A model generated the notes under the pieces. The model was not told where the DNA came from, searched no databases, and saw only the letters and a list, made by a program, of their open reading frames with translations. A DNA stretch of 64,000 nt. Origin: Caballeronia sp. TF1N1 (GTDB taxonomy: Bacteria > Pseudomonadota > Gammaproteobacteria > Burkholderiales > Burkholderiaceae). The stretch is from positions 1,364,001 through 1,428,000 of the forward strand of contig NZ_CP084627.1 in NCBI RefSeq assembly GCF_022878925.1, given 5' to 3'. The translations under genes and the position numbers were made by a program. Shown here in pieces: positions 7,256 to 28,522 of this stretch; position 1 is the first letter of the stretch; the number at the start of each line of letters is the position of its first letter.

Positions 7256-8116
7256 TCAATTCGCTAGTGGCGCTCCTGTGCCTACCGTAGCGAGCGCGCC
7301 ATCGGTGACATAGGGCACGATGCCGTCGGCCGCGATGCGTGCGGCCGTCGCGACCTTGCAATCGGCATCGGCGGGTGCGCAATAGTCGATCGAAAGGACC
7401 GGCAGATGGTATCGATCGCGTATGGTCGTGGCCTGCATCAGCAGCCAGTCGCGGTCGGCCTGCGGTACTTCCGTATAGCGTTGCTTGCCTGCATCCCAGC
7501 CGCGATACAGCGATTCTAACGCGACCATCCAGGCTGATTCATGCACTTGAGGCAGCACTTCAAAGCCGCGATTGAAGATCAGCTTCGCTTCCGGATAACG
7601 CGCCTTGATGGCGCGAATGACGCGCACGAGTCCCGCTTCCTGTGCCGCACGCGCGGCATCGGTCGTGGCGATCAGCTGATACGAATCGAGCGTATCGAGA
7701 AAGAAGCCGCGATAACCCTTCTTCCACAACGGCGCGATAACCTTGTTTACGACGAACGCCGGCCATTGCGCCGCCGTTTGATCCACCACGTGCGACGCCC
7801 ACGCCTGATTCACGCCAGGCATCCACGCAGACGGAATCGCCTTGAAGTAAGCGCGATGCGGATTCACTTCGCCGATGCTCACGTAAGCAAACCACGCCGT
7901 GTGCGTATCCGCATGAGCTTGCGGATCGAAATGTGCATCGGGCTCGACTACGACGACATCGAAACCGGTGAGTTCCTCGACAGGCGGATTTGCGCCGTAA
8001 TACAGCGCGACCGATGTCGTTTGCGCGTGCGCGGCAGTCACCATCGCCCCGAAGGCGGCGATTCTCGCGAAATGCAGCAATGCGCGCAGGCCAGATCGTC
8101 GGACGAATTTGTTCAT
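7256..8116 (-). CDS. secreted GH114-family hydrolase (stand-alone PelA-type hydrolase domain)
   Basis: A 286-residue protein with a signal peptide ending near A-A-H-A-Q and a GH114 (endo-alpha-1,4-polygalactosaminidase type) TIM barrel. Motifs visible are L-Y-Y-G-A-N-P-P-V-E-E-L, Y-V-S-I-G-E-V, G-Y-R-G-F-F-L-D-T-L-D-S, F-N-R-G-F-E and A-L-E-S-L-Y-R-G. The same domain opens PelA, but here it is complete. It starts 13 bp after the pelG stop on the same strand, so it is probably the last gene of the pel operon. Likely role: periplasmic or extracellular cleavage of the partly deacetylated GalNAc polymer. Confidence 0.85.
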   Translation of the reverse strand: MNKFVRRSGLRALLHFARIAAFGAMVTAAHAQTTSVALYYGANPPVEELTGFDVVVVEPDAHFDPQAHADTHTAWFAYVSIGEVNPHRAYFKAIPSAWMPGVNQAWASHVVDQTAAQWPAFVVNKVIAPLWKKGYRGFFLDTLDSYQLIATTDAARAAQEAGLVRVIRAIKARYPEAKLIFNRGFEVLPQVHESAWMVALESLYRGWDAGKQRYTEVPQADRDWLLMQATTIRDRYHLPVLSIDYCAPADADCKVATAARIAADGIVPYVTDGALATVGTGAPLAN

Positions 8117-9503: not shown

Positions 9504-11140
9504 CAGCGTGACTCCTGCGATGCAAGCGGCTCTTTCGCGGCGCCTGCCGGTTTGTGATGATGCATCGGGCATTGCGCGGCGCTGGCCGACATGCCGCTGC
9601 GCGCTCGATCCGGCAGTGCCGACAGACGGTCATACAGCGCGCGATAACGGTCGATCATCTGCTTCTTCGTGTAATAGCGGCGCACGCGTGCGAGACCGGC
9701 TTGTTGTGCGGCTTGCCAGCGCGTTTCATCCGCGAGCAAGGACAGCACGGCCTGCGCGAACGCGGCCGGGTCCGCAAGCTGCACGACGCCGCCCGCCGAT
9801 CCGAGCGCGCGATCTTCCTCATCCACGCCTTCGATCAATTGGCGGCACGACCCGACATCCGTCGTGATGGCCGGCACGCCCGCTGCGAAACCTTCGAGCA
9901 CCACGAGCGGCAGCGCTTCGCTGATCGAGGTCAGTGCGATGACATCGACTTGCGGCAGCATGTCGTCAATACGCTGAAAGCCGAGAAACTTGAGATTGCG
10001 GCTCAAGCCGAGACTCTCCACCAATGCGCGGCATTCGAGCGCATAGGCGGGATCTTCTTCTTCCGGTCCGATGATCCAGCCTTCCAGGTCCGGCATGCTG
10101 CGCGACGCGATGAAGATCGCGCGAATGAAAGTCTTGATGTCCTTGATCGGCACCACACGTCCGATCAGCGCAACCACGCGATTCGAACGCGGCTTGCGTT
10201 GCGCGACGAGCGGCCCGAGCGCATCGACGTCGATACCGTTGGGGATACACTGCGTGCGCTCGGCACGCGCACCGTCCGTCACCTGACGCTGGCGATTCGC
10301 TTCGTAGAGCGCGACGATATCGTCGGCGGCGTCGTAGGCAAGCTTGCCGATCGCTTCGAAGAAACGCACCCACAGTTCGCGGAAGTAACTCACGCGCGAG
10401 ATGTCGCGTTCGAACACACCGCGGTTGTCGCGAATCCACTGGCTTTGCAGCAAGTCGATCTTGCGTTCCTTCGTATAGATGCCATGCTCGGAGATCAGCA
10501 AGGGCCTTCCGGTACGGTAGTGCATCAACGCGCCGAGAAAGCCGCTATATCCCGTCGATACCGTGTGATAAACCTTGGCCGGCAACAACTGCTCCGCCAC
10601 GCGCGCAAGCTGCCACAGCGGCTTGTGCATGATACGCACGGTCCAGAAGTAATCGGTGAAGGACGGGTCCGTGCAGAACTGCTCGTATTGATCGACGATG
10701 GTATGCCACGCCGCGCGACTCGTGAGGAACTGCTCTTCGTTGAGCGCGCCGCTCGTGCCGATCATCGGGATCATGTCGGCGAGCAACGCGCCAGCATCGC
10801 GGCCGTTACGCGGGTCGCGCAAGGTGTCGTGCAGCTGCTGCGAGCGCACGAATGCGGCGCTGTCGCCAGCGGCCGCGCGCGGCGTAAAATCCGCCGTGGT
10901 CGGCTCGTACAGGTAATGCGTTTCGATATGCACGACGTTGTCGGGCAATGCATAAGCGACGCCCGCATAGTCCGACTTCTGGCTGCCTATGAAGACGATC
11001 GCGAAGCGTGTGTCGGGGTAAGAGCGGATCATCTCGTTGACCCAGCTCGATACCCCGCCGCGCACGAACGGGAACGTGCCTTCGAGGAGAAGGCAGACAT
11101 CGGCATCGGCGGCGCGGCGGATCGGGAGTTCTTTCATCAT
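9503..11140 (-). CDS. pelF: Pel polysaccharide glycosyltransferase PelF
   Basis: Cytoplasmic GT4-family glycosyltransferase that polymerises UDP-GalNAc into the Pel backbone. Features include L-L-L-E-G-T-F-P-F-V-R-G-G-V-S-S-W-V at the N-terminus, I-P-N-G-I-D-V, L-I-G-R-V-V-P-I-K-D, and the E-x7-E type motif S-E-A-L-P-L-V-V-L-E-G-F. At 545 residues it is slightly longer than the roughly 507-residue P. aeruginosa protein because of its C-terminal tail. Its start overlaps the pelE stop. Confidence 0.95.
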   Translation of the reverse strand: MMKELPIRRAADADVCLLLEGTFPFVRGGVSSWVNEMIRSYPDTRFAIVFIGSQKSDYAGVAYALPDNVVHIETHYLYEPTTADFTPRAAAGDSAAFVRSQQLHDTLRDPRNGRDAGALLADMIPMIGTSGALNEEQFLTSRAAWHTIVDQYEQFCTDPSFTDYFWTVRIMHKPLWQLARVAEQLLPAKVYHTVSTGYSGFLGALMHYRTGRPLLISEHGIYTKERKIDLLQSQWIRDNRGVFERDISRVSYFRELWVRFFEAIGKLAYDAADDIVALYEANRQRQVTDGARAERTQCIPNGIDVDALGPLVAQRKPRSNRVVALIGRVVPIKDIKTFIRAIFIASRSMPDLEGWIIGPEEEDPAYALECRALVESLGLSRNLKFLGFQRIDDMLPQVDVIALTSISEALPLVVLEGFAAGVPAITTDVGSCRQLIEGVDEEDRALGSAGGVVQLADPAAFAQAVLSLLADETRWQAAQQAGLARVRRYYTKKQMIDRYRALYDRLSALPDRARSGMSASAAQCPMHHHKPAGAAKEPLASQESR

Positions 11141-12147
11141 GACCAGTACTTCACAACCGGTTTGAGCGTGGGCAACGAAGCGGCATTGCCGAGCGTCGCC
11201 AGAAGGTTCGCCACGCGTGAATATTCGCCGCGCAGAAAGTCCGCTTCGGCAAGCCAGGGAACGAGACGTTCGCGCGGAAAGCCGAGCTCGAGCGCGCGGC
11301 CAATGTGTTCATGCGCTTCATCGGGCAAGCCGCTTGCAAGCGCCAGACGTCCGCGAATGAGCCACAGTGCGGCATCCGATGAATCGATTTCGAGCGCGGC
11401 TTGCGCGTAGCGGTCGGCTTGCTGCAGCGTGTGCTTATAGACCGCGCCTTGCACGAGATTCTGGTACACGAGCTCGAAGTAGAGTTCGGCAAGCAGTCGA
11501 TTCAGCGCGTGACGCTCGGCGGGCTTCTCGGTTGCTTCGAGCGTTTTGCTCGTTCTGAAGATTTTCTGCATGATCTCGTTCTCGGCATGGTCCAACGTGC
11601 CGTATGCAATCAGGCGAATGTCTTCCAGGGGATCGGCGAGCAAGTCGCGCAGCAAGGTGCCGGTGGTGCGGGTCGGCATGCTCTGAATGGCAACCAACGC
11701 GGACAGTCGATCCGTCGATGCCACCTGCGTGTTCGCAAGACGTGCCTGCAAGCGCGCGCCGCCGCCATGCTGAACGCGCGATACCAGATACGTGACGAAC
11801 TTGGGACGCGCGACATCGTCGAGTTCGCCGCTTTCCTTAAGCGCGGGGAAGAGCGCTGCCCAGATACAGCTCACGAGCACCACGACGCCACCCAAGAGCG
11901 GTACGAACGTGCACGCAAGCCACAACGAGAGCAACGACCACGCAAGCGGCTTGCGATAGTTCCGCGGCAACCAGGCGCGAAACGCAACGGCTTCGGCCAG
12001 ACCCGCTGCGGCCTGCCAAGCCAGGAAGCGCATGAGCGGATCGAACGCGCCCGGCGCCTGCATCAGGCTCGCAATCGCAAGGTATTGCACCGTTCCCGCG
12101 ACGATAGCCGCGAGCGCGCCGACGAGGAATGAGGACCCTTTAGACAT
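11137..12147 (-). CDS. pelE: Pel inner-membrane TPR protein PelE
   Basis: Two N-terminal membrane segments (about residues 8-28 and 70-100) are followed by a helical TPR-like cytoplasmic region with A-L-E-I-D-S-S-D-A-A-L-W-L-I-R-G. At 336 residues it matches PelE length. The ATG at 12147 was chosen as the start; it overlaps the pelD stop by 8 bp, and a longer frame to 12225 is shadow. PelE is part of the PelDEFG membrane complex. Confidence 0.88.
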   Translation of the reverse strand: MSKGSSFLVGALAAIVAGTVQYLAIASLMQAPGAFDPLMRFLAWQAAAGLAEAVAFRAWLPRNYRKPLAWSLLSLWLACTFVPLLGGVVVLVSCIWAALFPALKESGELDDVARPKFVTYLVSRVQHGGGARLQARLANTQVASTDRLSALVAIQSMPTRTTGTLLRDLLADPLEDIRLIAYGTLDHAENEIMQKIFRTSKTLEATEKPAERHALNRLLAELYFELVYQNLVQGAVYKHTLQQADRYAQAALEIDSSDAALWLIRGRLALASGLPDEAHEHIGRALELGFPRERLVPWLAEADFLRGEYSRVANLLATLGNAASLPTLKPVVKYWS

Positions 12148-13534
12148 CGAGGCCACTTCGCTTGAGAAGACGCTTGAGCGCCGCACCCGGTTCCTCGCCT
12201 TCGAGATGCAGCGTATGCACGCCAACGCGCGCGCCTTCGAGGTCGGTATTGAACTGCGCTTTCAGACTTGCTTCGATACGCGCGAGATAGCCGTCGATGC
12301 CGGTCGTATCCGTTGCGGGCATGAGATTGAGCAGCACGGATTGCCGCGGCGTCTGCACGGGCCACATGACGTCGAGCGAACGGCGGCGGCGTATGACGTG
12401 TTCGAAGAGTTCATCGCCTTCTTCATCGCGCGGAAACACGAGCGCGACCAGCGAGGAAGCCACGCCCGCCTTCTTCTGCAGACGCGTCAGACGGCCGAGA
12501 TCGAGCGCGAATTCATGCGGGCAATCGGGTACCTGATCGACGATGCGCTGCACGAAGGACGCGTGCGCCACGCCATCGGCGTAGTAACCCAACAGCACCA
12601 GCAGGAGTTGCAGATTGTCGAAGTTGAGCGACAGGAACGGCATGCGCTTGATGACGAGCAACGCACGCAATTCGCCATCGGCGGAAACCAGCGGCGCGCA
12701 GACGAGATACTCGCTGACCGGCACGGTCGAATCGACGTTCTTCAGATGCGCGACGTTTTGCGTGGCGAGCGCATGCATGACGAGTTCATCGTCGAGCTTG
12801 AGCGTGAAGGCATCGCCGAGTTGGGCGATCGGCTCCATGCCCAGTTTGCCCCGATGCACCGGAAAAAGCGCGGCCACTTCAATTTGACATGCTTGCGCGA
12901 TGAACTCGAGCAGGCCATCCGCGCCGCGCATCGATGAATCGTTCTTCGCCGTGTCGCCGGCGACGGAAAGCCGCCGCAACTCGGTGATCGAATCGCGCAA
13001 CGTCGTCGGACGCGACAGCAGATCCTTCTCAAGCCGCTCATGCGAAAGACGCAGCAAGTAGTGACTGTTGGTCAACGCAACGAGGCGGTCGTTCAGATAG
13101 TCGTTCAGCGACGATGCACGTTCCGCGCGGCTGCCCCACGTATCGCCGAAATGACCGGCAAGGATCGTCTGACAAAGACCGCCCGCGAAATACAACGCGG
13201 GAAACGTGCCGCCCGGCGGATAGAACAACTCCCACACACCGAACATGATGGAGCTGGACAGCAAGCCAAGCAGCGTACCGTAGCGCAACGCGACGAGCAG
13301 CGGCACCATCCATAGCCACGGAAAGCCGCCGCGCACGAGTAAGGGATCGTCATGCTGAAGCCAGCGCGCGACAGACAGCATGATGAGCATCAGCGCGACG
13401 CTTTCGACGATAGCGAAGGGCCGCGCCACCGCGGGCGCGAGAAAGCGGCGCACGCGGCCCAAATTGCCGAACGGATGCGCGTGGCGCTTGGCGGCGCCCG
13501 GGTTGGTTTCGACGGCTGCGGTATTCACGGCCAT
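12140..13534 (-). CDS. pelD: c-di-GMP receptor PelD
   Basis: Inner-membrane regulator of Pel synthesis. It has up to four N-terminal membrane segments (residues about 35-130), a coiled-coil stretch, a GAF domain, and a degenerate GGDEF domain. The c-di-GMP inhibitory-site-type motif R385-S-L-D388 is present (RxxD), so ligand binding is expected while cyclase activity is not. Length is 464 residues, versus 455 in P. aeruginosa. The downstream effect, activation of PelF, is inferred from the family. Confidence 0.93.
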   Translation of the reverse strand: MAVNTAAVETNPGAAKRHAHPFGNLGRVRRFLAPAVARPFAIVESVALMLIMLSVARWLQHDDPLLVRGGFPWLWMVPLLVALRYGTLLGLLSSSIMFGVWELFYPPGGTFPALYFAGGLCQTILAGHFGDTWGSRAERASSLNDYLNDRLVALTNSHYLLRLSHERLEKDLLSRPTTLRDSITELRRLSVAGDTAKNDSSMRGADGLLEFIAQACQIEVAALFPVHRGKLGMEPIAQLGDAFTLKLDDELVMHALATQNVAHLKNVDSTVPVSEYLVCAPLVSADGELRALLVIKRMPFLSLNFDNLQLLLVLLGYYADGVAHASFVQRIVDQVPDCPHEFALDLGRLTRLQKKAGVASSLVALVFPRDEEGDELFEHVIRRRRSLDVMWPVQTPRQSVLLNLMPATDTTGIDGYLARIEASLKAQFNTDLEGARVGVHTLHLEGEEPGAALKRLLKRSGLDV

Positions 13535-13615: not shown

Positions 13616-14167
13616 TTACTGGCGCGCTTGCAACGGCGACAGCACATTGCCGATCAAAGTGGTCGCCACACTCGACAATGCCGAGCGGCTCCAGCCCGTA
13701 CGCGTTCCCGTTGCGCTCCAGACGACCGAGCCGTTCGCGACATCGATCAGTTCGAAGGTCACGCCCACTACCGGTTCGCCATCTACGCCGGTCTTGTAGC
13801 GCCATTCCTCGACCGCGCCCGTCAGCACATAGCGCGCGTTTTGCGAGCGTGCCCATTCGAGCGACTTGTCGCCATCGCCGCGTTGCGCGTTATCGAAGAG
13901 CGCGTTGCGGTTGGTATCGGCGGGAGCGATACATACATCACCGATACCGCCTGCGCGCAGCGTATTCGCCGCGATGGATTCGGCGCTCTTGCCCGCATCC
14001 GGCGTTTCCGTGTAGTTGGCGATGGACACGACAGCCACCTTGTCGCCATGCGTGAGCGTCGGGCCGGCCGTCTGACGCACCGTTCCGCATGCGCTCATTG
14101 CAAGCGCGAGCGCGGTTGCCGCCACACACCATGCGCCTGAACGCGCGAGTCGTTTGATACCGTGCAT
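13616..14167 (-). CDS. pelC: outer-membrane lipoprotein PelC
   Basis: Periplasmic-facing lipoprotein that forms a ring under the PelB pore in the family. The signal peptide ends in L-A-L-A-M-S-A-C; the -3 position is Met, so the lipobox is slightly off consensus. It is 183 residues. The start at 14167 has a strong GGAAGGGG ribosome-binding site 6 bp upstream, which decides against the frame extending to 14203. An 81-bp gap separates it from pelD, the largest inside the operon. Confidence 0.9.
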   Translation of the reverse strand: MHGIKRLARSGAWCVAATALALAMSACGTVRQTAGPTLTHGDKVAVVSIANYTETPDAGKSAESIAANTLRAGGIGDVCIAPADTNRNALFDNAQRGDGDKSLEWARSQNARYVLTGAVEEWRYKTGVDGEPVVGVTFELIDVANGSVVWSATGTRTGWSRSALSSVATTLIGNVLSPLQARQ

Positions 14168-14199
14168 GTTGCTTCCCCTTCCGTGGATCCAGAATCGTT

Positions 14200-17100
14200 T
14201 CAATAAAACCAGCTATAGCGCGCACCGATTTGCGTGACCGGCGTACCGAGACGCGACACACGCTGATGCGAGAAGTAAAGCGCCGCATGATCGCCGCCGA
14301 ACACAGTGCCCGCGAGGCCAAGACTGATGGACGGTCCCCAGCCCTGATTCGAGTCGTGCAGCACGCCTGCATCGAAGAATGGCCGCCATGCGCGCGTGTA
14401 TTGATCGAGCAGATCGTTGCCGAAACCGAAGAACAGGCCGTATTGCGAGTAGCTTTGCGGAATGAAGCTCGCCGCACTCACCGGACCGGCGGTCACCGGA
14501 ATGAGGCGCGAGATCAGGCCATCGGCGGCGCCACTTGCGCCGTATCCGCCATGCGCGCCCATCAGGCGCAGCGTGTAGTCCGGATAATTCGTGCGAATGC
14601 GATAACCGATCTCGCCCGTCGACAGCACGCCGCTACCGAGATAGTTACGCGCTTGGCTATAGAAGCGATCGGCTTCGACCGTGCCCGTGGCATAGAGGCT
14701 TTCCGTCGCGCGATACGTCACGGTGCCTGCGACGTTGTCCTTCACACCGCCCACTTGCAACACTTGCGACTCGCGTGCGGTCTGGTTGTAGCCCGCCTTC
14801 ACGGCGAGCGACAACGCGGAATTTCGGCCCCATTCCGCACCCGCCGATACGCTGTAAAAACTGTCGAGCGCTTCGCGGCGGCCCACGGTGACCATGAACG
14901 CCGTGTCGTAAGTCTGGCGGCGCGCGAAGACTTCCAACGAGCGATCCACCGAAGGGACATCGGTGAGTTGCGATGAATCCGTCGAATGCTGGAAGCGTTG
15001 AACGCCCTTCACGCCGATCATGTATTTGTCCGCGATCTTGAGGCTGCCGCCAAGCGTCTGCTCGATGTAATCGAGCGGATGTTCGACATAACTCGTGACG
15101 CTTGCATCGAGCGATTGCGGCCACGTCAGTGAGGTCTGCACGAGGCGGCCATGCAGTTCATCGTCATAGGGCGCATCTTCGAGGCCTTGAAACGCGAGCT
15201 TTTGTGCATCGCCCGGACGATCCACCGCGATCGATGCATCGATACGGTCATAGATCGGCAGGCGCGCCTTCTGATCATCGAGAAGACGTTCCATCGCGGG
15301 CTTGTCGTTGTCGGCAAGCGCAATGGCGATCAACTGCTCCGAAGGCTGAACCAGCACGTCGGCGTATTGACGCGCGAGCCAGCGCTTCGCCAACGGATTC
15401 GCTTCGTGCGACATGGCCCAGGCAAGCGCGACATCGCGTGCAACGGACGACGTCAGTTGTGACTCTTTCGCAGATGCACTTGCGTTCGATGCCTTCAATT
15501 GCGCAGCAGGCAGACCGGCCGTATCGCCCAGCAAGGTGCGGCGTGCGGCGGTGTCGTCGTTGCGCCCGGCATCGGTTGCGAGCAGGTCGATCAGCAATGC
15601 CTTCGATACATCCGCGTTCTCGAATATCGATGCCAGCGTCACGCGCCGGCCTTGCAGTTGTTCACGCACTTCACTGCCTTGCGATTGGCGCGTCTGCACG
15701 ATGTTCCTTCCCACCGCCGTGTTCGCGCGAACGGCCGCTTCCTCGTCCTGCATCTGGCGCCAGACATTGCGGCGAATGGACCATGCGAGCTCGCTGCGTC
15801 CGGCCATCTCTTGCGCCTCGGCATAGCTCAACTGCCACAGCGGATCACGCGATGCGGACGCCGCTTGCAGACGCAAGTACTTGAGCGCGGCTTCAGGCTT
15901 GTTCAAGCGCATATAGGCAGCAGCGAGCGGGCCCCACAACGCGGGCTCTTGCGCAGGCGTATCGCGCCATGGCTTGAGCGCGTCGTGCAATTGCGCATCC
16001 GTGCCGTAGTCGACGAGCGTCCAGAGCAATGCCGCGCGCAAGTCGAGCGCGGCACCCGGCAGCGTGACGGCATGTTGAAGATCGGCGAGCGCATCGAGCG
16101 GACGGTTCGTCTGTCGATAGTATTCGGCGCGAATGCGCAGGAACGACGGCGACTCCGACGCAACGGCGAGTTGCTCCGGGCTCAGGCTCTTGAGCAATGC
16201 ATCGGCGCGATCGTATTGCTCGGCATCGGTGTAATAGTGGACTGCGCTTTCCAGTGAGCGCGGCGAACGATCGCGGCGATACTGCAACTCCGAGGTACGA
16301 GCGGCATCGACTGGATAAGCGTCGTAGAAGTACGTCATCGCGCTCAAGTCTTCGGGCGTGGCCTCGCCGCTTGCAAGCAGATGCTTGTACGCGTCGTTGG
16401 CGATGTCATCGCGTTGCAGAAGACGCGCGAGTTGCGCCGCGTTGCGCCAGAACAGAATGTCATCGTTCCTGGCGCCTTGGCGTGCAGCGAGCAAGGCATC
16501 GAGCGCACCCTTGTAGTCGCCATGACGATACAAAAGGCTCGCGGTGCGCAATGCGTATTGCGTGTTCGCCGGATTGCGCTTGTTCAACGCGCGATAAGCG
16601 GCGAGCGCTTCGTCGTCGTGGCCCGAGCGTTCCGCGAGTTGGCCAAGCCGCAAAACGATGGCCTCGTTCGATATCGTGCGCTGACGGGTGCGCAGGAACG
16701 CCAGTGCATCGTCCGGACGGCCGAGACGTTCGTATGCCGCGACGACCGAGTCGAGCAGCTTGAGATCGGCGGGTGCGGCATTCGATGCCTGGATCAACGC
16801 GGCGAGATACGCGTTGTCGTCGTTGAGCATCGGAGCCAGACGCATGACGTTTTTCCAGCCTTCCGGGTCGTGCGTGGCTTGCGCGTAAGCGAGCCACATC
16901 TTGAGCGCGAGCGGCGACGCGTGATTCCATTCGGATACTTGAGCGAGCCGCTTCGTCCACACCGTCGAGCCGGGATTCTTCTCGACCTGTTCGCTCGCGA
17001 CGCGCTGTGCGTTCTGCAAGTCGTTCGATTCGAGGAACGATTGATACAGGAGACCCGGGACATCGTCCGTGGCGCTCGGAGCCGATGCAGGCGTAGCAAC

Positions 17101-18078
17101 ACGAACGACATGCACATCGTGACGGTGCGTATGCATCGGCTGCGAACCATCCATATACGCATATTCTTTCTGTGATGCGCGCTCGCGAAGATACGCGACC
17201 AGCCGTAGCGCGCCGTCTTCATCCGTTGGCTGCGCTTGCGCATAACCCGCGAGCGCCTTTGCATAACGATCCACGAGGTCCGGCCGATGCGCCGCGCGGG
17301 CCAGATTCAGCAGCACGACAAGCGTCGCGTGATCGTGCGCGAACGCCGCGCCATGTTCCTTCGCGGCGCCAAGCGCTTCATCGAGCAGATTGCCCGACTG
17401 CAGCGCGCGAATGCCGTTGATGAAGCAATCACGCTTCGCATCGAACGTGGGTGCCTTCGCTTGCAAACGGAACCAGCCTTCCGCCGCGCCGCGATAGTCG
17501 CCGCCATACATGGCAAAGCGCACCACTTCGCGATTCCAGCGCGTCTGTTGTGCCGGGTCCTGCACGGCAAGCCGCGCATAGAGCTGCCCCGCAAGCTGTT
17601 GCGCATTTGCGGATGCAGCCGCTTCGGCCAGGATTTGCAAGTCCGCATTCGACCACGACAGCGCCGCCGCGTTGGTCAGTTGCGTGCGCAGGCGAACCAG
17701 CGCGGCCTCGCGGCCCGGATCGTTCGCGGGCAATGCGAAGGTCTCGCGCGTATCCACGGTCAGGCGCAGCAACTGTGCGGCGCGATGAAGCTCGTCACCA
17801 GGCGCGGCGGCCATGCGGTCAGCAATGCGGCGCGCATCTTCATCGCGCCCGAGACGCACGTATTGCGTGCCGAGCACCGAGAGAATCTCCGTGTTGCCGG
17901 GCTGCACGCGCAGCCACGCTTCGAGATAAGCGATGCTGAGATCGCTCGGTGCATCGGTGGATGTCAAGCGGTTGCGCAATCCGCCACGCGGATGCATGAA
18001 CCATAGCGTGATCAACACGACGCCCGCGAGCAACATCACGAGCCACGTTGGCGCAATACGAGGGCGATTAACGAGCAC
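14200..18078 (-). CDS. pelB: outer-membrane Pel export porin with TPR scaffold, PelB
   Basis: A 1,292-residue protein, about 100 longer than P. aeruginosa PelB. It has an N-terminal membrane anchor (W-L-V-M-L-L-A-G-V-V-L), a long TPR array through most of the protein, and a C-terminal beta-barrel ending A-R-Y-S-W-F-Y, with the terminal aromatic typical of outer-membrane proteins. It guides the polymer through the periplasm and out. The start is a GTG overlapping the end of pelA by 11 bp, implying coupled translation. Confidence 0.93.
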   Translation of the reverse strand: MLVNRPRIAPTWLVMLLAGVVLITLWFMHPRGGLRNRLTSTDAPSDLSIAYLEAWLRVQPGNTEILSVLGTQYVRLGRDEDARRIADRMAAAPGDELHRAAQLLRLTVDTRETFALPANDPGREAALVRLRTQLTNAAALSWSNADLQILAEAAASANAQQLAGQLYARLAVQDPAQQTRWNREVVRFAMYGGDYRGAAEGWFRLQAKAPTFDAKRDCFINGIRALQSGNLLDEALGAAKEHGAAFAHDHATLVVLLNLARAAHRPDLVDRYAKALAGYAQAQPTDEDGALRLVAYLRERASQKEYAYMDGSQPMHTHRHDVHVVRVATPASAPSATDDVPGLLYQSFLESNDLQNAQRVASEQVEKNPGSTVWTKRLAQVSEWNHASPLALKMWLAYAQATHDPEGWKNVMRLAPMLNDDNAYLAALIQASNAAPADLKLLDSVVAAYERLGRPDDALAFLRTRQRTISNEAIVLRLGQLAERSGHDDEALAAYRALNKRNPANTQYALRTASLLYRHGDYKGALDALLAARQGARNDDILFWRNAAQLARLLQRDDIANDAYKHLLASGEATPEDLSAMTYFYDAYPVDAARTSELQYRRDRSPRSLESAVHYYTDAEQYDRADALLKSLSPEQLAVASESPSFLRIRAEYYRQTNRPLDALADLQHAVTLPGAALDLRAALLWTLVDYGTDAQLHDALKPWRDTPAQEPALWGPLAAAYMRLNKPEAALKYLRLQAASASRDPLWQLSYAEAQEMAGRSELAWSIRRNVWRQMQDEEAAVRANTAVGRNIVQTRQSQGSEVREQLQGRRVTLASIFENADVSKALLIDLLATDAGRNDDTAARRTLLGDTAGLPAAQLKASNASASAKESQLTSSVARDVALAWAMSHEANPLAKRWLARQYADVLVQPSEQLIAIALADNDKPAMERLLDDQKARLPIYDRIDASIAVDRPGDAQKLAFQGLEDAPYDDELHGRLVQTSLTWPQSLDASVTSYVEHPLDYIEQTLGGSLKIADKYMIGVKGVQRFQHSTDSSQLTDVPSVDRSLEVFARRQTYDTAFMVTVGRREALDSFYSVSAGAEWGRNSALSLAVKAGYNQTARESQVLQVGGVKDNVAGTVTYRATESLYATGTVEADRFYSQARNYLGSGVLSTGEIGYRIRTNYPDYTLRLMGAHGGYGASGAADGLISRLIPVTAGPVSAASFIPQSYSQYGLFFGFGNDLLDQYTRAWRPFFDAGVLHDSNQGWGPSISLGLAGTVFGGDHAALYFSHQRVSRLGTPVTQIGARYSWFY

Positions 18079-20815
18079 AGGCGACCTCGACCAGCTTGTA
18101 GTTCAAGATAGATCCGACATCGGCCGATGTGTCGAAGCGCAGGAGATCGCCATCGCGTCGGGCAGCAACGCTCTGACCGTTGACGCGGACCTTGCACTGC
18201 TGCGCGTTCGCTACCCTGACGAACGGCTGATAGTGGCCGGCAAATTCGAACTGCATGCCTTGCGGCGTGCGGCTAAAGTTGCGCACGAAACCATTTGCCT
18301 CTTCGATATACGGCGCGGTCGTTGTACCGCCCATGGCAAAACGCGCACTGCCGTTATCGATATGGATGTAAGTACCGTCAGGCCCCGGCGCGAAACCCGT
18401 GATGCCCGAAGCATCATCGACCGATGGCTTTGCCGCTTGCGGCCAGTGCAATTCGCGCACTTCGCCATTGCCGCGCACGAGCCATTGACCGGACTTCGAA
18501 TCGATGTCTTTTGCCACCGCGAAGGTATGCCAGTCGAGCACCTTGCGGATGTACTCGCTCACATAGACCGGCATCACCGGCTGCTTGAGTGTCGTCGAAA
18601 AGATCTGATCCAACGCGCGCAGCGACGCCACCTTGGTGCCGCTATACATGTGGTAATAGATGTCGATCGGCTTGAAGCGCTGCGGACGCTCGGTCATCGC
18701 GAACGTTTCCAGCACGCGCGTGAAGCCATAGAACGGACCTTGCCAGTCGTTCGTATAGACGTTCTCGTCTTGATTCGGCGCATAGACCTGATACGCGCGG
18801 GGTCCCTTGTCCACACCGACAGGCGCGATATTGGTCCAGCTATTGGCCGACTTCGTGATGACGGTATCGCCGCCATTGAAGTTGTAGACGCCCGCCTCGG
18901 CCACCTTGCGCACGACGAAGCCAGGCGGACGGCAGTCGCCGGACCATTGCAGGAGCACGGTCTTCTTGCCGGCAGGTGCAAGACGCGAGTTGATATAGTC
19001 GATCGAGCCCGTGATCTCACGATCGATATTGAAGCGATATCCCGGGATATTCAACGAGAACGCCGCGTCGCCACCGCCGCGATCCATCTGTGCGCCCTTG
19101 CTGTCGACCTGTTCCCATTGAAACGGATGCGAGTACGTATGCGTGCCGATCTCGACGTGCGGCAGCGCGAACATCTTGCGCGCGATGGCTTCCAGACGGG
19201 GCGAGATATCCGGATGCAGACCGGCAGGACCGACTTCGCCTTCAATGACGGAGAGCGTCATCGGCACTTGATAGCGCGTGAAAATCTGCTGATACAACGC
19301 TTCGCCCGAGTAGTCGGGACCGGGGAATTCCGCGCGTGAGGCGAAGCCATCGCCATCCACGTGCGACATGAAAAGGCGTCGGCCGTTTTCCGTCGTCACG
19401 CTCGGCGCGGGCATGTCTTGCAGATGCAGCGCCGCCTTCATGAAAGCCATCGGTTGAATGGCCCAGCGTTCCTGTTCGATGCTGTCCAACGATACGACTG
19501 TGTAAGGACTCAGCGCGTACCCGCCCCACGGCGTGAGCGCGACTTGGTCCACCTCTGCTCCGCTTGCCGAGACGCGCAACAAAGCTTGACTGCGCGGACC
19601 CACGCGCACGCCTTGCAGATCGCGCGGTTCCGGTTTCGGGCTGATCTCGAAGCCGATCATCGGATCGCTCTTGACGACCGTGACGGGCGCCGCGAACGTT
19701 CCGCCGACCGGTTGCAGATCGAGCGCGGCGCCAGCGGAACCGGCTGCATCGAAACCGAACTGACCGAGAAACGCGACAGGAATGTGATCCGCCATGCGCG
19801 CGGCAACCCATCGTTGCCAGACTTGTGCATCGGGCACCGCGCCGCGCTGAATCCATGCGACCACGCCTGCGTAGCGGTCGGGTGTGATGTTATCCGGCAA
19901 GCGCGACGAAAAGTCGGCGTACTCGACGTCGTAGCCCATGTAATTGAGCGGCGTGGCGAGGTCACGCACACCCGCGCTTAAATCGAGCGGGTCCTTGGTA
20001 TCGCGGTCCTGCACGACGAGAATCTTGCGCGGCAGCACTTCTATCTTGCCGATGCCGACCACATCGCGCGCCTTGCTCGTCACGTAAGGCAGCATGCCTG
20101 CGGACACGACGCGGCTCGCCGTTTCGCGCGCGCACTGCCGGTCGTTGCGATTGCAATACTCGATCGACACGACCGGCACGCCGCTCTGCTGCGTGAATTC
20201 GCGCGCCGCCGCCATGCGCCGTGCGCGCAACGCTTCAGGAACTTCCGTGAACTGACCACTTTCGTCTATACCGCGAATCAGCGAATCGCCGACAACCGCG
20301 TATAGCGCGCTTGCATAGGGCAACGCGCTTTGCGCAATGTTCTCGCCACCCGCGATAAGACGCGCGTCCGGATGCGCCGCATGAATTCGAAGGGCTGCGG
20401 CAAGAGCGATTGGCGTATCGAGGAAAAATCCGCGATAACCACGCTGCCACAGCGCTTCGATTTCAGCGGCATTTCCGCTTTGACTACGCGCGATCCATGT
20501 CGTATGCGCGAGCGGATGCATGGACGGATCGAAGCCCGCTACCGGGTCGATGACCACTGCGTCGAATGCCTGCAATTGATCGACAGGCGGATTCGCCGCG
20601 TAATAGAAAGCGATATTGGGTTGAGATGCAGCGGACTGTGAAGCGCGCGGCGCATTGGACTGCAGCGCCGCCGCTTGCGCATAAGCGATGAACGGATCAA
20701 GGCCCGCCGTGCTCAACAGAACGGCTGCCATTACGCGCATCACGAAACGTTCAGGCGCACGTTCCGCACGCGCGCAAGAGAACATACCGGCGCGTGCCCG
20801 GGTCCACTTCTCCAT
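18068..20815 (-). CDS. pelA: Pel deacetylase/hydrolase PelA, with altered hydrolase domain
   Basis: Periplasmic modifying enzyme of 915 residues from the ATG at 20815 (a TTG at 20821 is also possible). A signal-like hydrophobic stretch ends near I-A-Y-A-Q-A. Then come a GH114-like domain, a flavodoxin-like middle region, and a polysaccharide deacetylase domain (S-H-V-D-G-D-G-F; H-T-Y-S-H-P-F) with a C-terminal beta region. The GH114 part lacks roughly 45 residues that the separate hydrolase at 7256-8116 retains, has L-D-T-P-I where that has L-D-T-L-D, and has V-G-D-S-L where that has A-L-E-S-L. It is the first gene of the operon. Confidence 0.93.
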   Translation of the reverse strand: MEKWTRARAGMFSCARAERAPERFVMRVMAAVLLSTAGLDPFIAYAQAAALQSNAPRASQSAASQPNIAFYYAANPPVDQLQAFDAVVIDPVAGFDPSMHPLAHTTWIARSQSGNAAEIEALWQRGYRGFFLDTPIALAAALRIHAAHPDARLIAGGENIAQSALPYASALYAVVGDSLIRGIDESGQFTEVPEALRARRMAAAREFTQQSGVPVVSIEYCNRNDRQCARETASRVVSAGMLPYVTSKARDVVGIGKIEVLPRKILVVQDRDTKDPLDLSAGVRDLATPLNYMGYDVEYADFSSRLPDNITPDRYAGVVAWIQRGAVPDAQVWQRWVAARMADHIPVAFLGQFGFDAAGSAGAALDLQPVGGTFAAPVTVVKSDPMIGFEISPKPEPRDLQGVRVGPRSQALLRVSASGAEVDQVALTPWGGYALSPYTVVSLDSIEQERWAIQPMAFMKAALHLQDMPAPSVTTENGRRLFMSHVDGDGFASRAEFPGPDYSGEALYQQIFTRYQVPMTLSVIEGEVGPAGLHPDISPRLEAIARKMFALPHVEIGTHTYSHPFQWEQVDSKGAQMDRGGGDAAFSLNIPGYRFNIDREITGSIDYINSRLAPAGKKTVLLQWSGDCRPPGFVVRKVAEAGVYNFNGGDTVITKSANSWTNIAPVGVDKGPRAYQVYAPNQDENVYTNDWQGPFYGFTRVLETFAMTERPQRFKPIDIYYHMYSGTKVASLRALDQIFSTTLKQPVMPVYVSEYIRKVLDWHTFAVAKDIDSKSGQWLVRGNGEVRELHWPQAAKPSVDDASGITGFAPGPDGTYIHIDNGSARFAMGGTTTAPYIEEANGFVRNFSRTPQGMQFEFAGHYQPFVRVANAQQCKVRVNGQSVAARRDGDLLRFDTSADVGSILNYKLVEVACAR

Positions 20816-21190
20816 CGGCAAGATCTTTTCCCCGTTTGATTTTTATACGAGTGCAGCGCGCTTTTCTCAAGGACATCGCCTTGAGGAAATCGTCACCGCA
20901 AGCTCATTCGGCTAGCCGCAATCGCGCTACGCAAAGCCCGCGTTGCGCGGGTCGCGAAGCAATATTCTTTTGCTCAAATGCCAAGGGCGCGCACGATAGC
21001 ACATGACCTTTAGCCGCTCAAGACCGCTTATGCATTGAACAAACCAGTGCACGTTGCTAGGCATTAACGACCATGTTCAATAGAACTTTAAGGCAAACGT
21101 TTGGCAACGCACTGAGAGATAACGAGTCGTCCAAGCGTCATCAAGCGATGCCAAAGATTTCTTTTTAATACGCTAAAGAAATCTTAAAGC
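20816..21190. promoter_or_regulatory. pelA / spherulin-4 divergent regulatory region with 11-bp inverted repeat
   Basis: A 375-bp AT-rich stretch with no gene. It should hold the leftward pel promoter and the rightward promoter of the riboswitch RNA. A perfect 11-bp inverted repeat, AAGATTTCTTT at 21154-21164 and AAAGAAATCTT at 21175-21185 with a 10-bp spacer, ends just before the riboswitch. It could be an operator or a stem-loop. I could not fix -10 or -35 boxes with confidence. Confidence 0.5.
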
Positions 21191-21194
21191 CTGC

Positions 21195-21296
21195 CGTTAG
21201 GGGAGAGGGGCAAAACCGGAGTGATCCGGCGACGCAAAACTAAAGGGACTTTCTTAACGAGAGTTTGCCAGTTGCCCGCCGTCTGTGCGGCGGGCC
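21195..21296 (+). ncRNA. class-I cyclic-di-GMP riboswitch (GEMM-I)
   Basis: The leader has the GEMM-I core in order: GGGGCAAAACC; a 5-bp stem CCGGA/TCCGG closed by the GNRA tetraloop GTGA (21216-21229); the invariant GACGCAAA (21231-21238); AAAGGG; a second stem ACTTTC/GAGAGT (21248-21253 with 21259-21264); and GCCAGTTGCC (21267-21276), the place of the tetraloop receptor. A GC-rich hairpin with arms 21274-21280 and 21289-21295 overlaps the aptamer 3' end, so the two folds compete; it has no U-run. An AGGAGG and the ATG of the spherulin-4 gene follow. Whether ligand turns expression on or off cannot be read here. Confidence 0.85.
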
Positions 21297-21334
21297 AAAA
21301 GACAGCGGCTCGAATGACCGCGTCAGGAGGCTAA

Positions 21335-22138
21335 ATGCTGAACGCAGCTTTGAAATGCTTGAACTGTCTGAAGTGGGCAATGCCTCTCGCCGCCTTGTTG
21401 GGCACCGCTAGCACAGCCTTCGCGGCCACAACGGTCAACACGGCCACCAGCGTCGTCATCCCCTCGTATTTCAATGCCACGAGCAGCGTCTCGAACTGGA
21501 ACAGCTTGACCGCCACCGCGCGCAAGGTTCCGACTACGGCCATTCTGAATCCGAACAGCGGTCCCGGTATCAAGGAAGACGTCGCCTATGCCGCCGCCGT
21601 AACACGACTTCATGCGGCGGGCGGTAAGGTGATTGGCTATGTATCGACGTCGTATGCAAAGCGCTCTCTGTCGGCGGTCGTGGCGGACATCAACGCGTAC
21701 GTGACGCTTTATAAGGTCGATGGCTTTTTCATCGACGAGATGACGGCCGATAGCCAGATGTCGCACGTCCAGTTCTATCAGTCCATCTACAACTACATCA
21801 AGGGATTGAAGTCGACATACTCGGTCATGGGTAACCCGGGAACGAACGTTCCCGAGCTTTATGCGAGCCTGCCGACCGCCGATCAGTTCGTGGTCTTCGA
21901 AAACACGGTCAAGAGTTACGCGCGCTATCAACCGATGAGCTGGCAAGCCGCATATCCGAAGAACCGCTTCGTGCATATGGTGTATGGCGCAACGGCCGCG
22001 CAGTTGCCGGGCGTCGTTCAGTATGCGAAGACACATGGCGCGGGCGGCGTGTATGTCACGTCGCTTGCCGGTTCGAATCCTTACAAGGCGCTGCCGCCGT
22101 ATTGGGATCAGGAAACGGCGGACGCCATCGCGCCTTGA
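21335..22138 (+). CDS. secreted spherulin-4 (GH135-like) glycoside hydrolase
   Basis: A 267-residue secreted protein with a signal peptide ending near A-F-A-A and one spherulin-4 TIM-barrel domain (V-V-I-P-S-Y-F, I-L-N-P-N-S-G-P-G, G-Y-V-S-T-S-Y, D-G-F-F-I-D-E-M). The acidic residues D134-E135 and E189 (V-F-E-N-T) occupy the catalytic positions of fungal Sph3 (GH135), an endo-galactosaminidase acting on galactosaminogalactan. It has AGGAGG 5 bp upstream of the ATG and the c-di-GMP riboswitch ahead of that. Placed head-to-head with pelA, it probably trims or releases Pel; the substrate is inferred. Confidence 0.85.
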   Translation: MLNAALKCLNCLKWAMPLAALLGTASTAFAATTVNTATSVVIPSYFNATSSVSNWNSLTATARKVPTTAILNPNSGPGIKEDVAYAAAVTRLHAAGGKVIGYVSTSYAKRSLSAVVADINAYVTLYKVDGFFIDEMTADSQMSHVQFYQSIYNYIKGLKSTYSVMGNPGTNVPELYASLPTADQFVVFENTVKSYARYQPMSWQAAYPKNRFVHMVYGATAAQLPGVVQYAKTHGAGGVYVTSLAGSNPYKALPPYWDQETADAIAP

Positions 22139-25093: not shown

Positions 25094-25533
25094 TTGCCGT
25101 CCCTCATCATGTTGGCGAGACGCAGCGCGCGGCCTGGCTTCGCGGCCGTACCGATGCCGACGTCTTCGCGCGCCCACTTCGAATCGAGCATCTCGGCCGC
25201 GGCCGTCGAATATTTCGCTGCGCGCGCCGCCGCGAGCATCTTCGTGAAGCCGAGCAGACGTCCAATGCCCATGTTGAAACACATGTTCGCGATGACCCGC
25301 TGCCGAACATCGTCGAGCGCACGCCACCACGACAGGTTGCGATCGAGATCGACGTACACGTCGTCGAGGTCGTCCTCGAGCAGCTGATCGACCTGACTAT
25401 CTGACAGCGGATAGGTCCATCCGGCCGGCAGCGGCTTCGCTAGCAGGTTGTGCCCCACGCCGGTTGTCGGAATCCCTTTCGAGTCGAGGTAGCGGGTGTA
25501 TTTCACCCCCTCGTCGCGCCGCAGCTTTGCCAA
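25090..25533 (-). CDS. T4-type phage lysozyme (endolysin), 5' end disturbed
   Basis: A peptidoglycan muramidase of the T4 lysozyme family: L-R-R-D-E-G (catalytic Glu), Y-L-D-S-K-G-I-P-T-T-G-V-G-H, then V-R-Q-R-V-I-A-N-M-C-F-N-M-G. The only usable start is a TTG at 25533, without a clear ribosome-binding site, lying inside the portal fragment; five codons further upstream the frame is closed by TGA. The true N-terminus was probably lost at a deletion junction. Enzyme domain otherwise complete; whether it is translated is open. Confidence 0.72.
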   Translation of the reverse strand: MAKLRRDEGVKYTRYLDSKGIPTTGVGHNLLAKPLPAGWTYPLSDSQVDQLLEDDLDDVYVDLDRNLSWWRALDDVRQRVIANMCFNMGIGRLLGFTKMLAAARAAKYSTAAAEMLDSKWAREDVGIGTAAKPGRALRLANMMRDGK

Positions 25534-26245
25534 GCTGATCCAGCGGAATCATGTTCGACTGGACCGTGAAGACATCGCCGCCCTGGAAGGGCGGCAAGTT
25601 TTCTTTCTTCCGGACGTCATTACGGTTTTGCCAACCGTTTTGAAGCGCCGATGTGTAGTACTGCGCGCGGGCAGCGCTGTCGGCACGCAGCAAGCCTTCG
25701 ACGTTGAACTCCGCGTAAAACTTGTCGCGCTCAAGAGCCGTCAGCAGGGCGCCGCCGATCTCCTGCTCGATGTTTTCGAGCCAGAAGCGCAGCGTGTACG
25801 TCAGAAACTCTGCGATATGCGCGAGCATTGCCACTTGGCTAGACGGCGATGGGTTCAGCAAACGCTTGTAGCATTCGAGAATAGCCAGTTCGCCAACCAG
25901 CTTTGACGCCGATGCGACGCTATAAACCGGCTGTTCTTTTGCACGCTTCTCGCACTCGATGAAGTACCGGCGCGCCTCTTTGCCTTTCTCCGTGCGCTCG
26001 ACCATCGACAGTTCTTTGGCCATGTCGAGCGTCACCGCGTATTCGATCGTCGGCCGACCTTTTCCCCCGTTTTGGTGAAAAGTCACGTAGTCGATGTTCG
26101 CTATGAAACCGAATTGCTCAATGCGATTGGTGATCCACGAAGAGAAATCTTTTCCGACTTCAAGAAAGGCGTGCAGCTCGCGTGCGTTCGCAGTCTGAAT
26201 AGGCTGATCACCGATGGGGCGCGAATGGATGGCGATGAGATTCAT
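25397..26245 (-). pseudogene. in-frame fusion of AntA-type antirepressor to portal-protein C-terminus
   Basis: The 282-residue reading frame begins as a phage antirepressor with an AntA domain (N-A-R-E-L-H-A-F-L-E-V-G-K-D-F) and its middle region, up to M-L-A-H-I-A. Without a break it then continues as the C-terminal third of an HK97-type portal protein (Y-T-L-R-F-W-L, E-R-D-K-F-Y-A-E-F-N-V, R-K-K-E-N-L-P-P). After L-D-Q-L-G-K it runs out of frame into lysozyme sequence. Portal and antirepressor are normally far apart, so a deletion has joined them. The start is the ATG at 26245. Confidence 0.8.
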
Positions 26246-26253
26246 GGATGACC

Positions 26254-26448
26254 TCACAGGTCGTTGTCGTGACCGCACGGCAAAGAGCCGTCGGCGTTTT
26301 GCTTCGCACCGCACGCGATGCAGATCTTCTTCGGCTGCTGCGCGCGCTCGCGCTCTTGCCATTCGGCGGTGAGCGGACCATCGAACATGCGGCCGGTCGT
26401 GATGAAGTCGGGGAACGCAGTAGGGATGAAGTCAGGACTCGCGCTCAT
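26254..26448 (-). CDS. small phage protein with Cys-rich tail
   Basis: 64 residues, with I-C-I-A-C-G-A-K and a later C-G-H, which could bind a metal. The ATG overlaps the stop of the CP76-like gene (ATGA) and the stop is 8 bp from the antirepressor start, so it is part of the leftward early operon. Function unknown. Confidence 0.65.
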   Translation of the reverse strand: MSASPDFIPTAFPDFITTGRMFDGPLTAEWQERERAQQPKKICIACGAKQNADGSLPCGHDNDL

Positions 26449-27504: not shown

Positions 27505-27595
27505 AAAAATCATTCTATACGCAGATGGATAGACGGTCAATACATCAATGGATACTTGTTTGTCTAGTTCTTATACGCCCGCGTATATTCACGGG
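27505..27595. promoter_or_regulatory. cI/cro control region (pR, operators)
   Basis: Leftward promoter pR: -35 TTGACC (complement of 27535-27540) and -10 TATAGA or TAGAAT (27512-27519), with the half-site ATGGATAGAC at 27525-27534 lying between them. A related ATGGATACTT is at 27548-27557, and the dyad TATACGC-CC-GCGTATA at 27572-27587 lies 8 bp upstream of the cI start. The ATGRATA half-site recurs at the second early promoter near 30690-30720. Confidence 0.6.
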
Positions 27596-28522
27596 ATGAA
27601 CATCTCAGACCGTCTCGATTTGCTGATGAAACTTCGCAACATCGGCAGCCAAAGCGCGCTCGCGCGCAGCTCAGGAGTTCCTCAGCCGACTATCAACCGT
27701 ATCCTGAAAGGCACGACCGCCAGTCCGGACGTTCCGACGCTTCAGAAGCTCGCGACTGCGCTCGAGAGCAATGTGAACTGGCTCGCCGAGGGCCTCGGTC
27801 CAGGGCCTGATAGCCCCGATCACCGGCCAAAAGACCCCGTTATTCACGGGATTGGGGACGGCGGCCTCGCCGCTAGAATTAAGTCTTTGCTGGAGGACTT
27901 AGGCGGGAACGAGACCCGCCTAGCAGCGGGCGCGAAGACAGATCTCGCGACGGTGCTCGACCTTCTCAGCGGCAAGATTCAGCGTCTGGACGTCGATTTG
28001 GCGGTTGCGATGCAGGAGGCCTTCGGTGTCAACTCAGTCTGGTTGATGCTCGGGAAGGGTCCGCGGAAGACAGCTATCCGGCACAACGACCCGTATGAAC
28101 CAATCCCTGTCACAGGCTGGCGGGGTGTACCGGTAGTGGGAATGGCCCAGTTAGGAGACAACGGTTTTTGGGCTGACGTGGAGTACCCCGTCGGCCAAGG
28201 CGATGGCTTCGTAGATGTGCCGACGAAGGACAAGGACGCGTACGCCATTCGTTGCAGCGGGGATTCCATGCGCCCGCGGATTAAGGATCGTGAGTTCGTT
28301 GTGATCGAGCCGAACCATCCGATCGAGCCAGGCGACGAAGTGCTCGTGAAGTCGAAGGACGGCCGGGTGATGGTAAAGGAGTTCCTGTACAAGCGATCTG
28401 GGCGCGTGCATTTGATCTCAACGAACGAGCAGCACGGCACCATCTCGTTTGCGGATGAAGAAATCGAGAAGATGCACTACGTAGGATGGATCGCCAAGCC
28501 TTCTGCATGGCGCCCTGATTAA
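27596..28522 (+). CDS. CI-like repressor with two HTH regions and S24 peptidase domain
   Basis: A 308-residue prophage repressor. An N-terminal HTH (residues about 1-60: Q-S-A-L-A-R-S-S-G-V-P-Q-P-T-I-N-R-I-L) is followed by a second HTH-like segment (about 90-150), then a LexA/S24 domain with catalytic Ser224 (C-S-G-D-S-M) and Lys261. The usual Ala-Gly cleavage pair is not obvious (V-V-G-M-A-Q-L-G), so induction might depend on an antirepressor rather than self-cleavage. The ATG at 27596 is the first downstream of the operators. Confidence 0.88.
   Translation: MNISDRLDLLMKLRNIGSQSALARSSGVPQPTINRILKGTTASPDVPTLQKLATALESNVNWLAEGLGPGPDSPDHRPKDPVIHGIGDGGLAARIKSLLEDLGGNETRLAAGAKTDLATVLDLLSGKIQRLDVDLAVAMQEAFGVNSVWLMLGKGPRKTAIRHNDPYEPIPVTGWRGVPVVGMAQLGDNGFWADVEYPVGQGDGFVDVPTKDKDAYAIRCSGDSMRPRIKDREFVVIEPNHPIEPGDEVLVKSKDGRVMVKEFLYKRSGRVHLISTNEQHGTISFADEEIEKMHYVGWIAKPSAWRPD

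Follow-up and report, generated by a model that had tools for sequence, protein, structure and literature searches.

The c-di-GMP-I riboswitch and its neighbouring genes

The locus lies in a window of 64,000 nucleotides from the genome of Caballeronia sp. TF1N1. The window was searched with cmscan against Rfam 15, and the single match above any gathering score was RF01051, the c-di-GMP-I (GEMM-I) riboswitch, at 21199-21279 on the plus strand. The aptamer scored 49.9 bits against a gathering score of 35 (E 9.2e-07) and covered the full model from position 1 to 87. The covariance-model check that the first-pass annotation had proposed for its riboswitch thus came out in favour of it. The rest of the 7.07 Mb genome gave no further RF01051 match, nor did the 14 control genomes give one. 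The GEMM-I parts that had been named beforehand were all present: the first stem is capped by the GNRA loop GUGA (21221-21224), the segment GACGCAAA lies at 21231-21238 and GCCAGTTGCC at 21267-21276. With the Vc2 numbering, which we take to place G20 at 21210, A47 at 21237 and C92 at 21275, all 38 homologous leaders had the ligand residues G, A and C. The G at position 20 favours c-di-GMP over cGAMP, the ligand of the A20 type, and G20 is described as a selectivity factor, not as a hard filter (PMC9262584). Judged by these residues and the model score, the element is a genuine c-di-GMP-I riboswitch, for which ligand binding itself is predicted.

The gene downstream of the aptamer (21335-22138, plus strand) encodes a Spherulin-4 or GH135-type hydrolase of 267 amino acid residues, as had been annotated. 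It was matched by the Pfam family Spherulin4 (PF12138) with E 1.2e-46 and 159.7 bits against a cut-off of 30.2. Its start is divergent to that of pelA, 513 bp away, and the pel operon follows on the minus strand. PelA (18068-20821) matched the solved PelA 9cgy with E 3.3e-141 over the C-terminal three quarters and has an eroded GH166 hydrolase domain. The pelB gene (14200-18078) was recognised by PF24604 and TPR matches, pelF (9503-11140) by NF038011 with 842.8 bits and pelG (8130-9572) by PF16933 with E 2e-150. The assignments of pelC (13616-14203; an LpoB match just below the cut-off) and pelE (11137-12225; no Pfam match) follow from position only. PelD, encoded at 12140-13534 and matched by PF16963 with E 9.9e-48, had been pointed out as the c-di-GMP receptor of the operon. 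Its RxxD motif, which we take to be the c-di-GMP site, is kept and aligns with the RxxD of the solved PelD (4dmz). Pel synthesis needs c-di-GMP via PelD (PMC7112168; PMC2170427).

At the 3' end of the operon, a stand-alone PelA-type (GH166-like) hydrolase gene was found at 7256-8116 on the minus strand (PF03537, GH114, E 3.5e-20). It bears SIGEV, FFLDTLDSY, NRGFE and ESLYRGW, which are the motifs found in PelA when its hydrolase domain is intact, and most GH166 motifs are lost from the PelA of the window. Neither this gene nor the eroded domain had been part of the first-pass annotation. PelA was detected in 67 of 70 regions, and when the classes were set by eye, 30 of 68 PelA sequences (a set that includes the window and two partial frames) were eroded. 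With the window excluded, 25 of the 28 operons whose PelA is eroded had a homologue of the 7256-8116 gene 3' of pelD, versus none of the 12 whose PelA is intact. Ten ORFs 5' of eroded pelA genes were scanned and contained no hydrolase; they code for transport proteins, regulators and other enzymes, three being without a match. In the six genomes with the back-to-back arrangement PelA was always eroded.

We considered that Spherulin-4 is a mere substitute for the lost PelA hydrolase. This idea was rejected, since genomes with Spherulin-4 often have an intact PelA (6 of 6 operons of g24 and, apart from the window, 8 of 9 operons of the window's genus). It is also countered by the stand-alone GH166-like gene that most of the eroded operons possess.

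The hydrolase resembles fungal Sph3

The N-terminus of the hydrolase looks by eye like a signal peptide. By sequence, its nearest solved relative is Sph3 of Aspergillus clavatus (E 6.9e-11). An AlphaFold2 model of the hydrolase reached a pLDDT of 84 and a pTM of 0.79, and its top match in the PDB was again Sph3 (5c5g; E 9.7e-15, TM 0.74/0.77). In the alignment with the 5c5g chain, D134/E135 fall on D116/E117 and E189 on E172, and these residues of the hydrolase were invariant in 26 homologues. Glu222 of Sph3, named in PMC12054363, fits E172 of 5c5g with an offset of 50; the nucleophile is printed there as Asp196, for which the same offset would give 166. Taken together, fold and residues make the protein a candidate bacterial GH135 enzyme that is predicted to cut Pel or poly-GalNAc; the activity expected of this family is that of an endo-alpha-1,4-N-acetylgalactosaminidase. 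At most two members of each of the CAZy families concerned had been characterised by 2025 (PMC12054363).

The enzyme is the weakest element of the mechanism proposed below. Fungal Sph3 cut re-N-acetylated Pel and not native Pel (PMC9135694), it was reported to be unable to disrupt Pel biofilms of P. aeruginosa, and it disrupted aggregates held together by the GalNAc-rich Pel of Streptococcus (PMC12345266). The inactivity on native Pel and on P. aeruginosa biofilms speaks against a simple dispersal of mature Pel. The hydrolase might serve to clear away acetylated polymer, or the Pel that it meets might be more highly acetylated. The roles of Pel hydrolases in general are under discussion and include dispersal, the formation of cell-free polymer and clean-up (PMC9894940; PMC12345266).

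The riboswitch is tightly linked to the hydrolase gene and not to pel

The distribution of the three components was followed in the window's genus, in the family and in the order. Among 58 genomes of the genus, RF01051 was found in 8, Spherulin-4 in 11 and PelD in 13, and all 8 riboswitches were located 5' of a Spherulin-4 gene. The 398 Burkholderiaceae genomes contained RF01051 in 33 (34 places), Spherulin-4 in 41 (42 places) and PelD in 147. At 32 of the 34 places a Spherulin-4 domain began on the same strand 158-301 bp after the end of the riboswitch; both remaining places were in one genome (G107). Order-wide, in 275 genomes, RF01051 was found in 105 and Spherulin-4 in 10, and among these 10 the two were linked in the genome of the window alone. 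The dedicated pairing is therefore a trait of the family, to which three aptamer-bearing named loci from Oxalobacteraceae or an unplaced Burkholderiales MAG (L067-L069) have to be added. When 36 named loci were inspected, whose hosts are mostly Paraburkholderia, Caballeronia and Ralstonia, 32 had the aptamer (31 by pattern, L050 by Rfam) and four lacked it (L039, L044, L064 and L066).

Most genomes with Spherulin-4 are also pel genomes. PelD was present in 38 of the 41 family genomes with Spherulin-4 versus 109 of the 357 others (Fisher p 4e-15), and within the genus in 10 of 11 versus 3 of 47 (p 6e-8), p-values that overstate independence because genomes and leaders are related. The three exceptions in the family hold only distant domains (82-98 bits), so that PelD accompanies a strong Spherulin-4 in each of the 38 genomes that have one. 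PelD was also found in each of the 19 named genomes searched, drawn from the 36 named loci. Among these 38 genomes, at least six (G000, G043, G239, G270, G383 and G395) have the pel operon itself next to Spherulin-4. The same holds for 7 of the 36 named loci, Paraburkholderia and Caballeronia records in which the genes were divergent in 7 of 7 cases. Since pel is the next neighbour only in a minority, the conserved unit is the riboswitch and the hydrolase gene in a pel-bearing genome. The back-to-back arrangement that had been annotated is correct for the window and is the less common form.

That the hydrolase gene mostly stands apart from pel would suit an enzyme that is directed at a foreign polymer, either fungal galactosaminogalactan (GAG) or the Pel of neighbours, with c-di-GMP merely confining it to the motile phase. 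The genera that prevail among the named hosts, Paraburkholderia, Caballeronia and Ralstonia, are common in soil. GH135 was, moreover, founded on an enzyme for fungal GAG (PMC12054363). The strong co-occurrence with the cell's own pel, which is seen within a single genus too, argues against a foreign target, and we consider it rather unlikely.

Nine genomes with Spherulin-4 had no riboswitch match. Three of these hold the distant domains, two have decayed aptamers and four belong to genus g11.

Two exclusive helices in the leader point to translational control

The region between the aptamer and the start codon was compared in a set of leaders from 53 sources, comprising 31 named loci, the window and 21 hand-picked riboswitch-centred loci. 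Four loci (L098, L103, L106 and L111), in which the patterns missed the aptamer core or the start, were omitted, leaving 49 leaders, of which 38 were distinct. The first-pass annotation had noticed a hairpin competing with the aptamer. Such a hairpin, here called hairpin A (GCCCGCC/GGCGGGC, 21274-21295, plus strand), indeed overlaps the 3' end of the aptamer, takes C92 and C93 from the ligand pocket and is conserved in the 38 leaders. There, 95.5% of its cells were paired and 14 cells were changed on both sides, and none of 500 shuffles reached the pairing percentage or the two-sided cell count. Three pairs had a two-sided change, which was equalled by 136 of 500 shuffles.

A second helix would sequester the ribosome-binding region. 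The Shine-Dalgarno sequence AGGAGGC lies at 21325-21331, with AGGAGG 4 nt ahead of the ATG of the hydrolase gene, and its GGC was invariant in 38 of 38 leaders. The Shine-Dalgarno helix (21294-21331, plus strand) consists of GCC 21294-21296 paired with GGC 21329-21331, followed by GAC 21301-21303 paired with GUC 21322-21324; to these is added GCGG/CCGC at 21305-21308/21318-21321. In the 38 leaders 98.7% of the cells were paired and 11 cells were changed on both sides, which was reached by 0 of 500 shuffles; in two of five measures, the number of pairs with two-sided change and the further pair types, 45 of 500 shuffles did as well. The two-sided changes are found in GAC:GUC, with replacements of the AU type in three leaders from the side of the Oxalobacteraceae. 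The GCC:GGC pairing was kept in all 38 leaders, and being invariant, it provides evidence of conservation and not of covariation. When the partners were shifted by 1-3 columns, at most 53% were paired, and the helix was visible in the consensus fold of the leader alignment itself.

Hairpin A and the Shine-Dalgarno helix share G21294 and C21295 (alignment columns 117-118), and their full formation is mutually exclusive. The partner of C92 in hairpin A is G21294, so that holding C92 by the ligand would set free the bases that close the Shine-Dalgarno helix. This was followed in two-state models in which short RNAs were folded and G91, C92 and C93 were blocked directly. Blocking raised the mean GCC:GGC pairing from 0.23 to 0.69 in the 38 leaders (35 up, 1 down) and lowered the access to GGC by 0.16 on average, compared to a value of -0.05 in shuffled leaders. 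The access decreased by more than 0.1 in 24 of the 38 leaders and increased by more than 0.1 in none. A cruder first model, which included 40 nt of coding sequence and folded the downstream part alone, had given no clear change in the access to the Shine-Dalgarno sequence (means of 0.43 in the free and 0.40 in the bound state, 32 leaders).

An intrinsic terminator was considered as the platform and was rejected. The region 20822-21345 contained no terminator on the plus strand (one weak terminator was found on the minus strand, where 0.6 are expected by chance), and a run of 4 T, or of 5 T in 8, was absent between the aptamer and the Shine-Dalgarno sequence in 38 of 38 leaders. An intrinsic terminator is therefore unlikely. 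The exchange has a close precedent in pilM and Cd1, two other cyclic-dinucleotide riboswitches, which lose binding when the platform captures the ligand-pairing residue (PMC9262584). The leader platform is predicted to work as a translational OFF switch.

In the window itself the switch was modelled weakly. P(GCC:GGC) increased from 0.04 to 0.20, hairpin A reached 0.35 in the free state and the access to GGC decreased by 0.13, a value that 0 of 12 shuffles matched. The riboswitch or the platform of the window might thus be decaying and no longer switch, which would also be in line with the AAAA found in its internal loop where AAUC is usual and with the decayed aptamers of two genus members. 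The ligand residues are, however, all intact in an aptamer of 49.9 bits, the window leader allows full pairing of either helix, and the promoter site is intact. A decay of the window switch is therefore very improbable in our view.

A predicted sigma-28 promoter precedes the aptamer core

The alignment of eight back-to-back intergenic regions revealed a conserved block, TAAAG...GCCGTTA, directly 5' of the aptamer. Genes under the control of sigma-28, the late flagellar sigma factor, are typically expressed in motile cells with low c-di-GMP. For scoring we used TAAA-N15-GCCGATAA, which we take to be the sigma-28 consensus. The window has a predicted sigma-28 (FliA) promoter, TAAA-N15-GCCGTTAG, at 21174-21200 on the plus strand that agrees with this consensus in 10 of 12 positions. 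A site scoring 9-12 of 12 was present in 22 of 22 leaders from the Burkholderia side (Paraburkholderia, Caballeronia, Burkholderia and Robbsia records, the window and four relatives), and four of these scored 12 of 12. The spacing was 15 in 21 leaders and 16 in one, and from the end of the site to the GGCAAA of the aptamer core there were 8-11 nt in 21 leaders and 22 nt in one. Among the other 16 leaders (Ralstonia-type, Oxalobacteraceae, MAGs and two more), none had a site of at least 9, the best scores being 6-7. In shuffled DNA a score of 9 was reached in 107 of 1140 cases and a score of 10 in 10 of 1140, compared to 22 and 17 of the 38 observed leaders, respectively. No sigma-70 promoter was found in 20822-21345.

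The strict pattern was then counted in the whole genome of the window, where it had 15 matches including the window site, and the reversed pattern had 5. Ten of the 14 other strict sites were scanned for the frame that follows. By Pfam, these were motA (1), GGDEF or GGDEF-EAL proteins (3), an MCP (1), a HAMP protein (1), a solute-binding protein (1) and frames with no Pfam match (3); a flagellin gene was not among the ten.

In the Ralstonia-type leaders L055, L057, L060 and L061, the sigma-28-like site is by eye replaced by TTTGCC and CCCGGTAGAGT, which is perhaps a promoter of the sigma-70 type.

Proposed mechanism

We propose that the gene of a GH135-type Pel/poly-GalNAc hydrolase is transcribed from a flagellar (sigma-28) promoter and that the c-di-GMP-I riboswitch in its 5' leader is an OFF switch for translation. 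At low c-di-GMP, the ligand-contacting residues C92 and C93 would be bound up in hairpin A; this would deprive the Shine-Dalgarno helix of two of the three pairs that close it and allow translation of the hydrolase. When c-di-GMP is bound, C92 and C93 would be kept in the aptamer and G21294 and C21295 freed, such that the GCC:GGC helix could form beside the Shine-Dalgarno sequence and translation of the hydrolase would drop. Since sigma-28 genes are on in motile cells, a promoter of this kind together with the OFF platform would be expected to confine the hydrolase to motile cells. Pel synthesis depends on c-di-GMP through PelD and would thus run in the opposite phase to the hydrolase: Pel would be built by sessile cells at high c-di-GMP and cut or cleared by motile cells at low c-di-GMP. 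We assign a probability of roughly 0.6 to this whole scheme of a sigma-28 promoter, a translational OFF leader of the c-di-GMP-I class and a GH135 hydrolase working in anti-phase to Pel.

The first-pass annotation had suggested that making and trimming of the matrix share one signal and had left its sign open. The anatomy of the leader and the presence of the sigma-28-like site argue for making and cutting at opposite times. The reverse polarity would mean that c-di-GMP raises the hydrolase together with PelD activity and that acetylated polymer is trimmed or cleared by the enzyme while it is being synthesised, as was proposed for Sph3 in fungal GAG synthesis. Three facts would fit such an ON switch: each of the 38 genomes with a strong Spherulin-4 has pel, GAG synthesis requires Sph3, which is specific for the acetylated polymer (PMC12054363), and the formation of cell-free Pel requires the hydrolase activity of PelA (PMC12022489). 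It is opposed by the conserved platform, which predicts occlusion of the Shine-Dalgarno sequence in the bound state, and by the sigma-28-like site, which suits cells with low c-di-GMP. We regard an ON switch as unlikely.

With the OFF switch as the preferred reading, the Burkholderiaceae might possess a dedicated circuit for building or leaving, in which c-di-GMP drives Pel via PelD and silences the hydrolase via RNA, sigma-28 ties the hydrolase to the flagellar regulon, and a class-I riboswitch is kept almost solely for this gene even when it is separated from pel. For this wider claim we see an even chance. It bears on whether, and by what switch, bacteria time matrix hydrolases against Pel synthesis. 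One small leader would unite sigma-28, a c-di-GMP-I aptamer and GH135 in a wiring with a predicted sign, and a candidate bacterial GH135 is named whose biology is open to testing. Reporter and deletion experiments should be easy to interpret, as a single gene accounts for nearly all occurrences of the riboswitch in the Burkholderiaceae.

Comparison with known systems

The first-pass annotation knew of no description of a c-di-GMP riboswitch paired with a spherulin-4 gene, and our literature search, which covered mostly open-access papers, met no text that names both and, among the matches listed, no title or opening of an abstract that describes the pairing. The modules are known; their wiring, its sign and the near-exclusive use in the family are new relative to the literature searched. 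The closest wiring met in the search is the merRNA of Bdellovibrio, a c-di-GMP riboswitch RNA of the motile attack phase, in which 92 of 140 mapped promoters were FliA-like (PMC3627812). The merRNA is non-coding and was proposed to store the ligand, whereas the aptamer of the window is followed, after 55 nt, by the start codon of a conserved gene.

Cd1 of Clostridioides difficile has the aptamer and the ligand residues in common with the window leader. It is likewise an OFF switch, one that turns down flagellar genes, and the capture of a ligand-pairing residue by its platform ends binding (PMC9262584). Cd1 is transcriptional, whereas the platform in the window is predicted to be translational, its gene codes for a matrix hydrolase and its predicted promoter is of the sigma-28 type.

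On the side of the enzyme, the GH135 Sph3 of Aspergillus shares the fold and the positions of the catalytic Asp and Glu. Sph3 is described as membrane-bound (PMC12054363), in contrast to the bacterial enzyme of the window, which is apparently secreted, as far as its signal-like start can be judged by eye. The window enzyme also differs in its association with pel and with a c-di-GMP riboswitch, and its substrate is predicted. In Gram-positive bacteria, PelAH is encoded by a separate hydrolase gene that is often divergent beside pel, and its deletion raised biofilm formation in B. cereus (PMC7112168). PelAH resembles the hydrolase domain of PelA, whereas the divergent gene in the window is a GH135 and the GH166-like gene lies at the 3' end of the operon. 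The word "riboswitch" does not appear in the main text of PMC7112168.

Observations at related loci

Decayed aptamers were recognised by eye upstream of Spherulin-4 at L013 (genome G047) and L015 (G013) and represent natural losses of the switch. G047 gave no RF01051 match up to E 10 and G013 gave 24.9 bits; both retain a sigma-28-like site (10 and 9 of 12, respectively) and parts of the platform. The g11 loci L136, L137, L138 and L140 have a strong Spherulin-4 in pel-bearing genomes, with no RF01051 match up to E 10 and no sigma-28-like site of at least 9. A second copy of Spherulin-4 without a riboswitch match occurs alongside the riboswitched copy at L044 (Burkholderia sp. 8Y) and L020 (G048).

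One of the two unlinked riboswitches in G107 (L301 and L302) lies 5' of a 194-aa protein without a Pfam match and the other 5' of an HD-domain protein. At L303 and L305 (G089 and G090), c-di-GMP-I riboswitches of 73.7 and 75.9 bits precede a protein of 652-656 aa; the copy at L303 has matches to PKD and PPC and a weak one to a metallopeptidase. When plasmids were searched with the hydrolase, 12 records were returned, one of them from Caballeronia. Near the locus in the window, two prophage-like ORFs were found at 25397-26362 and 27548-28522, the first of which matches both AntA and Phage_portal, while the second is S24/HTH repressor-like.
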